Shown here in pieces: positions 6,701-11,597 of a stretch of DNA of 64,000 nucleotides. The stretch spans positions 1-64,000 of the forward strand of contig CAIKHO010000090.1 of NCBI GenBank assembly GCA_903827245.1. The letters run 5' to 3'. Source of the stretch: an uncultured Opitutia bacterium. Its GTDB lineage: Bacteria; Verrucomicrobiota; Verrucomicrobiia; Opitutales; Opitutaceae. A program made the position numbers and the translations under genes. Numbering within the stretch: position 1 is the stretch's first letter; the number at the start of each line of letters is the position of its first letter. The notes under the pieces were generated by a model that worked only from the letters and a program-made list of their open reading frames with translations, searched no databases and had not been told where the DNA came from.

Positions 6701-8206
6701 GTGGCCGGCTGGATTGCTGATTTTTTCCGCCTTGTTTGGGCGCTGTTTTACTGGAACGGACGGAAAAACCTTTTCCGACTGCGGCCCGGTTCCCGCTGCC
6801 CCTGCCAGTCCAGCAGCGATTCGGGGCGCGCCAACGAAACCAATTGCGAGGCCAGCATCCTGTGGTCCCGGCCGGCCCGTTTCCAACGCGTCTGTCCGCT
6901 GCTCGTGCACACCCCCGCCGGTCTGCGTTGCTCGGTGAACACCGCCGATGTCCGCCCATTCTGGGGCCGGGCCTTCCGCTATTATGGCACCGGGCTGGCC
7001 ACGATCTACCTGGTCGGCACCCTCGGGCTCTTCGTCGCCATGCGCGTTATCGGCTATCCCATCGGCTATGTGGCGGTGGCCTGGCCGCCGGCGTGGTGGC
7101 GGATCGACGTGGCCCGCGCGGAATATTTTTTAAACAAGGGGGCGAAGGCCCTCGCGACCAACAACATCAAGGAGGCGCTTTTCTCCCTTTCGTACGCCTA
7201 CGACCTCGCCCCGCACGACTACGACACCGGCTTCGCACTCGCATCACTCTGGCAGATCAACCAGCCGCTGCTTTCCGACCGGATCTACATCCGCCTCCTC
7301 GCGGAGCATCCCGAGCTGAACGACCGCACGGCCGACGCCTGGAATCGCGCGCTCCTCGCCCGCGGGGACTACGCCCAGATCAAGGAGCTCGCCGCGAGCC
7401 AGTTCCGTCGCGCGGAAGGCATCCATTCCGGCTACTGGATGCAGTCCCTGCTTTTTGCCACGCGCCAGACCGCAGACGACCTACCGCTGCGCCAGTTGCT
7501 CGCGAGCCCCCCGCCGCTCGGCCCGCAATGGCGCAAGGTGGTGGAAACCGAGCTGATGGCGCGCAGCGGAAGACAAAGTGAGGCGATCACGGCATTGAGC
7601 CAGTTCTGGCCCGAGGCGACCCACCCCTTCGTGCCGTTTTACCAGGCCAACGCCCTACTCGAGCTCAAGCAGCCCAGCCGCGCCCTCGATCTCCTCGCCA
7701 AGTACGGCGACCGGGTCCGGGACGACGAACGCTATCCCCTGCGGCTCGCCGCCTTCGGGCAGCTGGGCTGGCAAAGCCTGCTCGACAGCGACATCGCCCT
7801 GCTGCTGACCGCGCCACCGACCGGCCCCGTGATCGAGCTGCTGGGCACCCACCTCGCGCGCTATCCGAACCGGACCGTGCTGGATCACGTTTTCGCCCGG
7901 CTCAAGGAAGCGCCGCTGGCCTCGGCGAGAGAGAATCACAATGCCTTCGCCGCTCTGTTCTGCGCCGCGGGCATCGCAGGCGATTTCGATAAAATGCACG
8001 TCATGGGCCTCGCGCTGCAACAGTCCTCGGGTTCCTCGGCCCTGACCCTCGGCGCCTTCGAGGATTTTTTCCAAGGCAAGCCGCCGCCGCGCTACATCGA
8101 GTCGTTCCTGCCCTCGCTGCCCTTGCCACTGGAATTAACGTATATCATGCTGTCGCGTTATTCCTCCAGCCGCACCGCCGCCTCCGCGGCGCCAAGCCGG
8201 CCCTGA
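6701..8206 (+). CDS. TPR-like membrane protein with Cys-rich head, upstream of the exosortase
   Basis: The 501-residue protein has three parts. Residues 1-95 form a head with five cysteines (C33, C35, C49, C65, C77), including CPC and spaced single Cys residues, suggesting metal or Fe-S binding. A membrane segment at about 95-115 (GLATIYLVGTLGLFVAMRVIG) follows. The long C-terminal part has helical TPR-like repeats (KGAKALATNNIKEALFSLSYAY and others). Its stop overlaps the exosortase start (TGATG), so the two are translationally coupled and probably work together, for example as a scaffold or substrate handler at the membrane. The GTG start at 6701 gives the hydrophobic N-terminus. No precise family is assigned. 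Confidence 0.7.
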   Translation: MAGWIADFFRLVWALFYWNGRKNLFRLRPGSRCPCQSSSDSGRANETNCEASILWSRPARFQRVCPLLVHTPAGLRCSVNTADVRPFWGRAFRYYGTGLATIYLVGTLGLFVAMRVIGYPIGYVAVAWPPAWWRIDVARAEYFLNKGAKALATNNIKEALFSLSYAYDLAPHDYDTGFALASLWQINQPLLSDRIYIRLLAEHPELNDRTADAWNRALLARGDYAQIKELAASQFRRAEGIHSGYWMQSLLFATRQTADDLPLRQLLASPPPLGPQWRKVVETELMARSGRQSEAITALSQFWPEATHPFVPFYQANALLELKQPSRALDLLAKYGDRVRDDERYPLRLAAFGQLGWQSLLDSDIALLLTAPPTGPVIELLGTHLARYPNRTVLDHVFARLKEAPLASARENHNAFAALFCAAGIAGDFDKMHVMGLALQQSSGSSALTLGAFEDFFQGKPPPRYIESFLPSLPLPLELTYIMLSRYSSSRTAASAAPSRP

Positions 8207-9834
8207 TGACCACCGCCGCCACGCTGCCTTCCTCCGCCGTTCGCGCGGCGCCCCCGCCCACCTGGTTGGGCCGGGCCAACCTTGTCCTGCTGGCGCTGCT
8301 GGCCGGTGGATTCTCCGCCCTGCTCTGGCCGCAATGGCTGCACAATCCCGACCTTTCGCACGGCCTGTTCATGCCGGTGATTTTCCTGCTTCTGCTGCAT
8401 GAGGCCCGCACCGGGGGTACGCCGCGCTACCTTCCCGGGACCACCTTCACACGCACGGTCCTGGCGGCCGTCCTGACGCTCGGGCTGCTGCTACTCGCCG
8501 TGGGCGGTCTCTATGCCGCCGCCTTGGAATGGTCGCATGCCCTCGTGGGCTTCGTGCTGGCGTGCTCGCTCTCCCTCCTGCTGCTGGCCGCGTTGATCGC
8601 TTTTTCCAGCACTGCCGTCCGCCTCGTCCCCTTCAATTGGAGTTCCCTGCTGGCGGCCGGCCTGTGGATCCTGAGCGCGCCCATCCCGCCCGGGACCTAC
8701 GGGCGCCTCACCCTCGCCCTGCAGCTGCGGGTGTCCGAAAACGTCCTGCATGCGCTGCATCTGCTCGGCATCGCGGCCAGCCGGCATGGCAATATCATCG
8801 AGCTCGCCCGCACCTCCGTCGGCATCGAGGAGGCGTGCAGCGGCGTGCGCAGTCTCATCTCCTGCGTGTTTGCCGGCCTGTTCTTCTCGGGCTGCCTGGT
8901 CCGGCGGCCGTGGGCCCGCGTCCTGATCATCGCGCTCGCCGCGCCGCTCGCGCTCGTGATGAATTTCATCCGTTCCCTGCTGCTGACCCTCCTGGCCAAC
9001 GCCGGCATCGACATCAGCGGGCACTGGCACGACGTGACCGGCTTCGCGGTGCTGGCCTGCACCGCGGTGCTGCTCGGCGGACTGGCCCTGCTCCTCGAAC
9101 GCGGTGAAAAAACCTCCCTGTCAGCCGAGGCCATGCCCGCACCGGCGTCCGGCGCCTCCGCCCGCTTCCAGCCGCTTCTCGCCGGCGGGCTGGCCTGCGC
9201 AACCGTGCTGGTGGGATTTTTCGCGCTGCATGAGGACCTGACCCCGCGTCTGACCCGGCCGTTGCCCGATCTCGAAGCCATCCTCCCCTTGCATCCGGCC
9301 GGCTGGCAGGTCGTCACGTCCGACGACCTCAATCGGTTCAAGGAAGCCCTGCAGACGGACCATTTCGTGCAACGCACGTATGTGCGTGAAGCCGCCGATG
9401 GCGGCGTGCTGCAGATCACCGCCTACATCGCCTACTGGGCGCCGGGGCAGGCCAGCGCGAGCCTGGTGGCCACGCACACTCCCGACGCCTGCTGGCCGGG
9501 TGCCGGCTGGGAGCCCGTGCCGGTTCCGGCGGAGCTCATGCGCACCCGCCTGATCACCGGCAACCGCGAGCTGGCGGAGACGGAGTACCGCCTCTTCAGC
9601 GGCAACGGTTTTCCCCAGCATGTCTGGTTCTGGCATATTTACGACCGCCAGCCCGTCCGGTACCTCAATCCCCTCTCCCCTCGGAACCTCCTGGAAATCG
9701 CCGCGCGCTACGGTTTCCGCCACGCCGGCGACCAGATGTTCGTCCGCCTCTCGAGCAACCACCCGTGGGCGGACATCGCACGCGAACCGCTCATCACCGG
9801 CATCTTCACGCAACTCCAGCCCCTCGGGCTTTGA
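8206..9834 (+). CDS. Exosortase with C-terminal EpsI-like domain
   Basis: The 542-residue protein has an N-terminal multi-helix membrane domain with the exosortase/archaeosortase catalytic set: Cys in EEACSGVRSL (C211), Arg in NFIRSLLL (R256) and His in GHWHDVTGF (H273/H275). Exosortases cut and transfer proteins bearing a C-terminal sorting signal (PEP-CTERM and variants) at the inner membrane, usually linked to exopolysaccharide. Residues from about 335 to the end match the EpsI/DUF3485 domain (GWQVVTSDDLNRF, THTPDACWPGAGW, HVWFWHIYDRQPVRYL), often a separate gene but fused here. The upstream TPR gene overlaps it by one base. No protein with a recognisable CTERM signal is seen in the window. 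Confidence 0.88.
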   Translation: MTTAATLPSSAVRAAPPPTWLGRANLVLLALLAGGFSALLWPQWLHNPDLSHGLFMPVIFLLLLHEARTGGTPRYLPGTTFTRTVLAAVLTLGLLLLAVGGLYAAALEWSHALVGFVLACSLSLLLLAALIAFSSTAVRLVPFNWSSLLAAGLWILSAPIPPGTYGRLTLALQLRVSENVLHALHLLGIAASRHGNIIELARTSVGIEEACSGVRSLISCVFAGLFFSGCLVRRPWARVLIIALAAPLALVMNFIRSLLLTLLANAGIDISGHWHDVTGFAVLACTAVLLGGLALLLERGEKTSLSAEAMPAPASGASARFQPLLAGGLACATVLVGFFALHEDLTPRLTRPLPDLEAILPLHPAGWQVVTSDDLNRFKEALQTDHFVQRTYVREAADGGVLQITAYIAYWAPGQASASLVATHTPDACWPGAGWEPVPVPAELMRTRLITGNRELAETEYRLFSGNGFPQHVWFWHIYDRQPVRYLNPLSPRNLLEIAARYGFRHAGDQMFVRLSSNHPWADIAREPLITGIFTQLQPLGL

Positions 9835-10095: not shown

Positions 10096-10692
10096 ATGAC
10101 GGATTCTGCCGCCAGCGAACCACCCGAGGACCGTTCCCGGATCGATGGCGAACTGCTGCGACGCATCGCGCGACGTGACCGAACCGCCTTCGCCGAGCTT
10201 TACGACCGCTTCTCCCGCCCCCTCTACGCCACCGCCCTGCGTATCCTCAATGACGCGCGGGAATCCGAGGACATCGTCCAGGAGGTATTCCTCGCGCTCT
10301 GGGAAAAAGCCGCCGTTTTCGAACAGGAACGGGGCTCGGCCTTTTCCTGGGCCGTCACGCTGACCCGCAACCGCGCCATCGACCGCATCCGCCAGCGGAA
10401 GCGGCGCACCGAGCTGCTCTCCGCCAGCTCGCCGGCTGATCTCGGCTACGCCGATGCCGGCGGCGGCGACGATTCGGCCGAAGCCTTGGTTTTCAAGGAA
10501 AAGGCCGGGGCCGTGCGCGCGGCCGTCGCCGGGCTGCCAGCCGAGCAGCAGCGCGCGCTCCAGCTGGCTTTTTTCAGCGGCCTGACACAACAGGAGATCT
10601 CCGAAAAACTCGGCGAGCCCCTGGGCACCGTCAAAGCCCGCATCCGCCGCGGCCTGCTCCGGCTGCGCGAAACCCTCTCCCGACGGACATGA
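10096..10692 (+). CDS. ECF RNA polymerase sigma factor (SigK/RskA-linked type)
   Basis: The 198-residue protein is an extracytoplasmic-function sigma-70 factor. Region 2 is visible as AFAELYDRFSRPLYATAL, then ARESEDIVQEVFLALWEKA and the -10-recognition stretch TRNRAIDRIRQRKR. Region 4 has the helix-turn-helix LTQQEISEKLGEPLGTVKAR. The ATG at 10096 is chosen; an in-frame start at 10015 would add an unlikely 27-residue leader. The next gene, an RskA-type anti-sigma factor, overlaps its stop by four bases (ATGA), so both are made together. The factor would direct transcription of an envelope-response regulon once released. Target promoters cannot be told from this sequence. Confidence 0.92.
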   Translation: MTDSAASEPPEDRSRIDGELLRRIARRDRTAFAELYDRFSRPLYATALRILNDARESEDIVQEVFLALWEKAAVFEQERGSAFSWAVTLTRNRAIDRIRQRKRRTELLSASSPADLGYADAGGGDDSAEALVFKEKAGAVRAAVAGLPAEQQRALQLAFFSGLTQQEISEKLGEPLGTVKARIRRGLLRLRETLSRRT

Positions 10693-11597
10693 TCGACGAA
10701 CGCACCGAGGAATTTGCCGCGCTGCACGCCTTCGATCTGCTCGAAGGTGCGGAAAAGGTCGCGTTCGAGGCCCGGCTCGCCGGGGATCCGAAGCTCCAGG
10801 CGCTCGTTCGCGAATTGCGCGAATCGGCCAGTGCCCTCGCCTTCAGCGCGCCCGTCGCCGCGCCCGGTTCCGGGCTCAAGGCCCGCCTGCTCGAACAGAT
10901 CAGCGGGTCGTCCCAGGCCGGCTCCGGCGCAAAGTTACTGCCCTTTCGCCTCCCCACCCTGATTCCATGGGCCGTGGCCGCCAGCCTTGCCGTGCTGGCT
11001 GCCTGGCTCGGCCAGAACCTGCTGGCTACCCGGGCCGACGCCGATGCGCTCCGCCTCGAATCGCGCCTGGCCCAGCTCGCGCAGCGTGACGCCGAGAACC
11101 GGCTGGCCGCCGAGCGGATCATCCTGGGACAGGAGGTCAGGAATTCCGGGCAGCAACTGGCCGACGCACGCCAGCAGCTCGCCGACACCGCGAACCAGAT
11201 CGTCGCCGTCAACCAGCATGCGGCGGAGATCGCCCAGCAGCTCAAGACCCAGGCGGATCTGGCCCAGTTCAAAATCGCGACCCTCAGCTCCATGCTCGGC
11301 AACTCGCCGCAAGCACTGGCCGTGGCGGTTTGGAATCCCGCCCGGCAGGAAGGCCTCCTCACGGTCGAAAAACTCCCGGCCCTCGCGAAGGACCAGGATT
11401 ACCAGCTCTGGGTGGTCGACCCGAAGTACAAGGATCCGGTCAATGGCGGCGTATTCTCTGTCGATCCCGACGGCGTGGCCCGGGTGCAGTTCAAGCCGGA
11501 CCAGCCAATCACGTCCGTCGTGAAATTCGCCGTCACCCGCGAACGCAAGGGCGGCGTCGCCAAGGCCGAGGGCCCGTTTGTGCTGCTGAGCCAGTGA
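10689..11597 (+). CDS. Membrane anti-sigma factor, RskA-like
   Basis: The 302-residue protein has an N-terminal cytoplasmic zinc-free anti-sigma helix region (EFAALHAFDLLEGAEKVAFE). One membrane segment follows at about 90-108, then a periplasmic coiled coil (about 115-195) and a C-terminal RskA domain (VAVWNPARQEGLLTVEKLP, YQLWVVDPKYKDP, FAVTRERKGG). It would hold the upstream ECF sigma factor at the membrane and release it after a periplasmic signal, possibly through regulated proteolysis. Its start overlaps the sigma stop (ATGA). The long coiled coil between membrane and RskA domain is larger than in the standard mycobacterial protein. Confidence 0.88.
   Translation: MIDERTEEFAALHAFDLLEGAEKVAFEARLAGDPKLQALVRELRESASALAFSAPVAAPGSGLKARLLEQISGSSQAGSGAKLLPFRLPTLIPWAVAASLAVLAAWLGQNLLATRADADALRLESRLAQLAQRDAENRLAAERIILGQEVRNSGQQLADARQQLADTANQIVAVNQHAAEIAQQLKTQADLAQFKIATLSSMLGNSPQALAVAVWNPARQEGLLTVEKLPALAKDQDYQLWVVDPKYKDPVNGGVFSVDPDGVARVQFKPDQPITSVVKFAVTRERKGGVAKAEGPFVLLSQ

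Follow-up and report, generated by a model that had tools for sequence, protein, structure and literature searches.

A TPR gene overlapping an exosortase gene

The window analysed here (the whole stretch of DNA, 64,000 nucleotides) carries a gene for a cysteine-rich membrane protein whose stop codon overlaps the start codon of an exosortase gene (Table 1). The protein contains six cysteines, at residues 33, 35, 49, 65, and 77 and, within the TPR part, at residue 421, and no Pfam or NCBIfam family matched it above its cut-off. In the AF2 model, built with 72 aligned sequences (pTM 0.81), an N-terminal helix leads into a small head with two short strands, followed by a long helix containing the membrane segment and then by a helical solenoid. 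A cysteine head, one membrane helix and TPR-like repeats in a single protein had been predicted originally, and the reading frame, the hydropathy, the AF2 model and the TPR profile all agree with that architecture.

Table 1. Coordinates of the TPR gene, of the parts of its product and of the genes that follow (positions in the window).
Feature	Position	Strand	Remarks
Cys-head TPR membrane protein	6701..8206	+	ORF, 501 aa, GTG start; AF2 model pLDDT 91.9
N-terminal helix, residues ~2-26	6701..6778	+	helix in AF2 model; invariant D7, W18, N19, K22
Four-cysteine head, codons 33-77	6797..6931	+	C35, C49, C65, C77 essentially invariant; C33 variable
Single membrane helix, residues ~93-115	6977..7045	+	hydropathy; helix in both models
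TPR solenoid, residues ~131-490, putatively periplasmic	7091..8170	+	profile, AF2, fold matches; topology from charge
TGATG stop/start overlap with exosortase	8204..8208	+	TGA 8204-8206 shares A with ATG 8206-8208
XrtD-like exosortase with fused EpsI (DUF3485) domain, 542 aa	8206..9834	+	PF09721 E 8e-37; PF11984 E 1e-12
Exosortase motifs	residues: EACSG at 209, FIRS at 254, GHWHD at 272	+	sequence
ECF sigma factor, downstream context	10096..10692	+	relative in 18/42 exosortase-linked loci
Anti-sigma factor, RskA_C, context	10689..11597	+	relative in 25/42 exosortase-linked loci

The product of the downstream gene scores 127.4 bits against PF09721 (cut-off 25.7) and has the Cys, Arg, and His motifs of an exosortase, which we take to be EACSG, FIRS, and GHWHD, respectively. 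Conserved Cys, Arg, and His residues are described for exosortases by Haft and colleagues (PMC1569441). Its best NCBIfam model is TIGR04152 (XrtD) and, since the score of 135.9 bits lies below the cut-off of 400, the enzyme is called only XrtD-like; in the counts given below this term covers exosortases with at least 150 bits to the enzyme of the window, a partial one (G062) included.

A scan of genome contigs with the single protein gave no confirmed relative, and the relatives of the Cys-head protein were retrieved by profile search. Two sets were used, 80 loci from Opitutaceae genomes and 80 named loci (listed from 95 confirmed), which share contigs and are therefore not independent. The 72-row alignment consists of the protein of the window and 71 of the 80 named loci, 8 named loci not being entered. 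An XrtD-like exosortase lies directly downstream on the same strand in 42 of the 80 loci from Opitutaceae genomes, and an exosortase is adjacent in 50 of the 80 named loci; the linkage on which the original prediction could have failed is thus found in relatives. At one further locus (L104) the exosortase is about 3 kb off and on the opposite strand. The TGATG overlap pointed out at the beginning is likewise present, and a short overlap recurs among the exosortase-linked relatives: a 4-base ATGA is found in 32 of 41, TGATG in 3, either of them in 35, and 38 have the two genes within 30 bases, counts for which the start nearest the stop was taken (L056 excluded), a rule that favours short distances and not one exact value. 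The GTG start is apparently common as well, with Val at aligned residue 1 in 34 of 42 exosortase-linked rows and GTG in most named loci, and it perhaps holds the translation of the TPR/exosortase pair low. At L056:4363-7451, and also at L151, the TPR gene and the N-terminus of the exosortase form one long frame (732 aa) with the remaining exosortase in another frame, which is the result of frameshifts or of a fusion.

Further downstream in the window, the exosortase gene is followed by genes for an ECF sigma factor and an anti-sigma factor, and a possible role of this pair is the control of PEP-CTERM genes. The next gene is presumably FabV, as recognised from its sequence, and FabV is present in 30 of the 42 exosortase-linked loci. 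Upstream of the TPR gene, a gene cluster is present in 25 of the 80 loci, in most cases on the other strand, and the member of it that was scanned is an AhpC/TSA-type redoxin (L068:8068-8682 and similar); in the window, none was noticed at this place.

The four-cysteine head, the solenoid and their topology

The original prediction counted five cysteines in the head, and four of them have held up. In an alignment of 80 relatives from Opitutaceae, C35, C49, C65, and C77 are Cys wherever the residue is present (one or two rows being gapped), and in the 72-row set the counts are 72, 72, 71, and 72, respectively, the lone exception at C65 possibly being a matter of alignment. On the other hand, C33 is Cys in 63 of the 72 rows and, leaving out gaps, in 36 of 40 and 29 of 38 rows of the 80-relative alignment; because C33 is not conserved, the motif of the head is one of four cysteines and not five. 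Other residues of the head region that are invariant among 35 heads are D40, R60, F61, P66, L68, V84, R85, P86, and W88. A Pfam search with these 35 heads returned no family, and no rubredoxin family among the results, beyond one weak PHD_5 match (E 0.038) in one member, and a PDB profile search with the head gave nothing (best E 4.3). Modelled alone, the head reaches a pLDDT of 89.5, and the comparison of this model with PDB folds gave no match at E ≤0.001 (best Foldseek E 3.1, best Z 3.9). The matches to BusR (Z 3.9 and 2.3) and to one further regulator (Z 2.4) were read as a common helical arrangement and rejected. As far as these searches go, both the head and the protein family are new. 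A structural zinc site is predicted for the head, with a confidence that we would put at about even.

The Kyte–Doolittle maximum lies at residues ~94–114, inside a helix that the AlphaFold model places at 87–116 (in the numbering of a model beginning at residue 2). In the single sequence Pfam detects only TPR_19, with an E of 0.017 that is below its cut-off; by contrast with the single sequence, the 72-row family profile matches consensus TPR proteins in the PDB with an E of 2.8e-12, and the modelled solenoid resembles numerous TPR structures (MamA, LbcA, and LapB are examples), in the generic manner of TPR folds. Membership in the TPR superfamily, understood as tandem helix-turn-helix repeats recognised by profile or fold, is thus found for this protein. 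The mean net charge over the 72 rows is +7.8 in the head vs +1.5 in the TPR domain, and relatives that lack the head have short basic N-terminal tails ahead of the same helix. Under the positive-inside rule the basic side of a membrane helix is the cytoplasmic one, and from the basic head and the basic tails we infer a cytoplasmic head and a periplasmic TPR solenoid, a topology that stays at the level of charge distribution because the stretches directly on either side of the helix, considered by themselves, carry the same charge (+1.0 on each side). A disulfide between positions 382 and 421 was considered as a possible sign that the TPR domain is periplasmic: C421 is present in 53 of the 72 rows and C382 in 31, and 26 rows have C421 alone among the positions checked.

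A close likeness for such an assembly of parts is LapB/YciM, in which a membrane helix, TPRs, and a four-cysteine metal domain are also combined in one adaptor protein (the metal of the head described here being predicted). In LapB, both the TPRs and the rubredoxin are reported to be cytoplasmic, with the rubredoxin at the C-terminus (PMC13333357). The Cys-head protein differs from it in having the head N-terminal to the membrane helix and, on the presumed topology, across the membrane from the TPRs, so that the LapB layout of N-terminal membrane helix, cytoplasmic TPRs and C-terminal rubredoxin is absent; 12 of the 72 relatives give weak matches to the LapB model, just as to other TPR models.

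The likeness bears on the proposal, already made in the original prediction, that the head is a redox or metal sensor. It would then bind iron or zinc, or act as a thiol-disulfide switch, and would adjust either sorting or the ECF sigma/anti-sigma pair. The four essentially invariant cysteines in a basic head are compatible with this, as are the sigma (18/42) and anti-sigma (25/42) genes downstream at exosortase-linked loci, the redoxin-containing cluster upstream in 25 of the 80 loci and the precedent of LapB as a TPR membrane protein whose rubredoxin domain has been discussed in terms of a redox role (PMC13333357). However, a structural zinc site would lead one to expect the same invariance just as much, the window has no noticed redoxin upstream, and the sigma pair is not universal; at the 38 loci without an adjacent exosortase, sigma relatives were found in 5 and anti-sigma relatives in 2 within the fetched stretch. 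A sensor is for these reasons considered unlikely.

Distribution and linkage to PEP-CTERM genes

Relatives of the Cys-head protein are present in 71 of 120 Opitutaceae genomes. Across the phylum, the head profile detected 30 of 387 genomes, all of them Opitutaceae, and an order-wide search (273 genomes) gave 30 positive genomes, 28 in Opitutaceae and two that matched the membrane/TPR part only. In both searches the head is found only in Opitutaceae, as expected from the idea of a lineage-specific partner put forward for this DNA. The family was named by the titles of the relatives, which are Opitutae, Opitutia, Opitutaceae or a genus thereof, or Verrucomicrobia, with two exceptions among the 80 listed of 95 confirmed. 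Two metagenome bins titled Akkermansia muciniphila (L203 and L207) carry a Cys-head gene of the Opitutaceae type, and these titles are probably wrong.

Within the 120 genomes, the Cys-head protein and the XrtD-like exosortase occur together in 69, the protein alone in 2, the exosortase alone in 7, and neither in 42; the same tally by genus (49 genera) is 33, 1, 1, and 14, a count to be set beside a genome-level P value that is inflated by shared descent. The list of Cys-head proteins includes partial matches (G022, G047, G062, and G098). The two protein-only genomes, G022 (86% completeness) and G105 (68%), are both incomplete, and the XrtD-like exosortase may therefore be missing from the assembly. 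G105 is also the only one with the Cys-head protein among 38 genomes that have other exosortases without an XrtD-like one. Three of the seven exosortase-only genomes belong to one genus (g30), and since seven genomes have the exosortase without the protein, the latter is not strictly needed. Exosortase loci that lack an adjacent TPR gene revealed neither a copy nor a remnant of it. Genomes in which the two genes are separated still show the co-occurrence.

Head-less relatives, which share the membrane helix and the TPR region, are more widespread, being found in 140 of 246 genomes of the order. This family of single-pass TPR proteins (e.g., L252 and L271–L300) is homologous to the Cys-head protein over the membrane helix and the TPR region and, unlike it, has no four-cysteine head in the sequences examined. 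Neither does it share the genomic context: within ~1.5 kb of head-less relatives an exosortase was found at 0 of 30 loci, using a motif and an XrtD-like profile by which a distant type could be missed, and a PEP-CTERM gene at 1 of 30. The idea that the whole TPR family handles PEP-CTERM proteins was rejected on these two counts. As the head and the exosortase link go together, the distribution suggests that gain of the head may mark a change of function.

The loci without an adjacent exosortase are informative about what the protein might do. A VPEP-type PEP-CTERM gene lies at 16 of these 38 loci, with 1.7 expected from the genome-wide density, and at 2 of the 42 exosortase loci, with 1.6 expected, both expectations being approximate (genome counts come from Pfam matches and locus counts from a motif rule). 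The 38 loci are of several kinds. Some keep the surroundings of an exosortase locus, such as FabV; at a second kind the Cys-head gene lies beside genes for very long proteins (PATR repeats are present in the one that was scanned); and at a third kind the gene immediately upstream of it encodes a protein of ~310–350 residues. Many of the neighbours at unlinked loci end in a PEP-CTERM signal (VPEPSTYG, VPEPATYAQ). In a tree of 76 rows (4 short rows left out, context labels assigned by us), the third kind forms one branch with a support of 99, and 14 of the long-protein kind form another, also with 99. Because relatives adjoin PEP-CTERM genes, a role with sorting substrates is supported, in line with the substrate handler that had been envisaged from the window.

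At the genome level, the median number of PEP-CTERM ends is 8 where the XrtD-like exosortase is present vs 1 where it is absent. Two small genomes with the XrtD-like enzyme as their single exosortase have 27 and 28 PEP-CTERM matches; other genomes in which it is the sole exosortase have 0, 1, 1, and 5. Specificity of PEP-CTERM for the XrtD-like exosortase, or for its pair with the Cys-head protein, is ruled out because six genomes without this enzyme have at least 10 PEP-CTERM proteins.

These data allow two further explanations to be weighed. The first is that the protein is a general envelope TPR protein and that it adjoins the exosortase merely because the gene order was frozen, with no bearing on function. 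Head-less relatives common in the order (140/246 genomes) and not linked to exosortases would fit this, and FabV in 30 of the 42 exosortase-linked loci shows that the neighbourhood is partly frozen; however, the two genes still co-occur in genomes where they are not linked, and such separate copies are found at PEP-CTERM genes, which makes a mere frozen order very improbable. The second is that the protein regulates or assembles the exosortase, acting in its folding, quality control or placement without contact with substrates. The conserved translational coupling and the near-exclusive co-occurrence are what such a factor would leave behind, but the copies beside PEP-CTERM genes, away from any exosortase, point to substrates, and we regard this explanation as rather unlikely. 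Since the protein travels either with the exosortase or with sorted proteins, it seems to be a helper dedicated to the sorting pathway. On genomic grounds the Cys-head protein very probably belongs to the exosortase/PEP-CTERM pathway.

Known TPR partners and a possible role in sorting

A TPR partner of the exosortase is known in kind. The TPR lipoprotein PrsT (TIGR02917) has been tied to the PEP-CTERM system since 2006, when Haft and colleagues also suggested TPR domains as possible adaptors in that system and listed 65 PEP-CTERM proteins and no PrsT for Verrucomicrobium spinosum (PMC1569441). In Aquincola, prsT is reported to adjoin a PEP-CTERM gene, and a prsT mutant to be without floc formation (PMC9850573). 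The Cys-head protein resembles PrsT in being a TPR protein associated with PEP-CTERM genes and an exosortase. By sequence, TIGR02917 (cut-off 312.2 bits) does not match the protein of the window at E ≤1, and among the 72 relatives 9 reach E ≤0.01, the best at 4e-6, values of the order also obtained with other TPR models. By architecture, PrsT is a longer lipoprotein (899 model positions vs 501 residues); no signal peptide with a lipobox was seen by eye in the Cys-head protein, whose first cysteine, C33, lies in a basic segment past the N-terminal helix, and PrsT is not known to carry such a head. The Cys-head protein is therefore, as judged from both sequence and architecture, not PrsT. The original claim that this partner falls outside the standard exosortase-associated proteins holds in that sense, and has to be qualified in so far as PrsT provides a TPR exosortase partner of the same kind.

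The two proteins are also distributed differently. PrsT scored above its cut-off in 7 of 61 Opitutaceae genomes and, in the six where it could be placed (G007, G008, G012, G019, G054, and G057), it follows, on the same strand, an exosortase of a type other than the XrtD-like one. The Cys-head protein is present in 1 of the 7 PrsT genomes vs 35 of the 54 others (P 0.016). By these counts, two exosortase types of Opitutaceae each tend to have their own TPR partner. A literature search (exosortase in Opitutaceae/Verrucomicrobia, TPR, PrsT, XrtD/EpsI) yielded no description in which the Cys-head protein was recognised. Thus, the kind of protein is known, and the family and its head are new within the searches made.

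For a mechanism, the nearest worked-out model is LbcA, a TPR protein that is proposed to bring substrates to the processing protease CtpA (PMC8764530). Like the Cys-head protein, LbcA is an envelope TPR solenoid thought to serve a processing enzyme, and it is among the fold matches; it differs in being an outer-membrane lipoprotein and in serving a different enzyme. The reading we favour, and hold to be probable, is that the Cys-head protein acts as an inner-membrane TPR adaptor for PEP-CTERM sorting, as a functional counterpart of PrsT that is not PrsT. It would be inserted head-in, the head forming a small cytoplasmic four-cysteine domain, probably stabilised by zinc, that would dock the protein at the membrane machinery. 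In the periplasm, the TPR solenoid would hold PEP-CTERM proteins and present their C-terminal signal to the exosortase; alternatively, it could keep the product ready for the step that follows, in the way proposed for LbcA with CtpA. A copy next to the exosortase would be the general adaptor, and one next to a PEP-CTERM gene would be devoted to that substrate. The Cys-head protein would thereby take on the part that PrsT may play at the other exosortase type in Opitutaceae.

A bolder version of the adaptor reading can be put forward tentatively, and we think it more doubtful than probable. The head would be a new small metal-binding fold arising in one family, which made a membrane TPR protein into an exosortase partner and which couples the cytoplasmic side (the emergence of PEP-CTERM proteins, or a metal or redox state) to the handling of substrates in the periplasm; the duplicates would be substrate-specific escorts, including those of giant PATR-repeat proteins.

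How exosortases meet their substrates is little known, and the Cys-head protein is a concrete, lineage-bound candidate for a partner in this step. Its genetic signature (coupled start, co-occurrence and substrate-linked copies) makes substrate delivery testable. If, as suggested, each of two exosortase types has a TPR protein of distinct sequence, the TPR adaptor would be a recurring need and not an accident of PrsT.

Ends of another form occur at two of the loci, where the neighbours of the Cys-head gene (L078:8282-9781 and L064:4209-7601) finish with a Gly-rich stretch, a hydrophobic helix, and a basic tail (GGGGGGAPSLW...RRRR), and these tails we take to resemble GlyGly-CTERM rather than PEP-CTERM.
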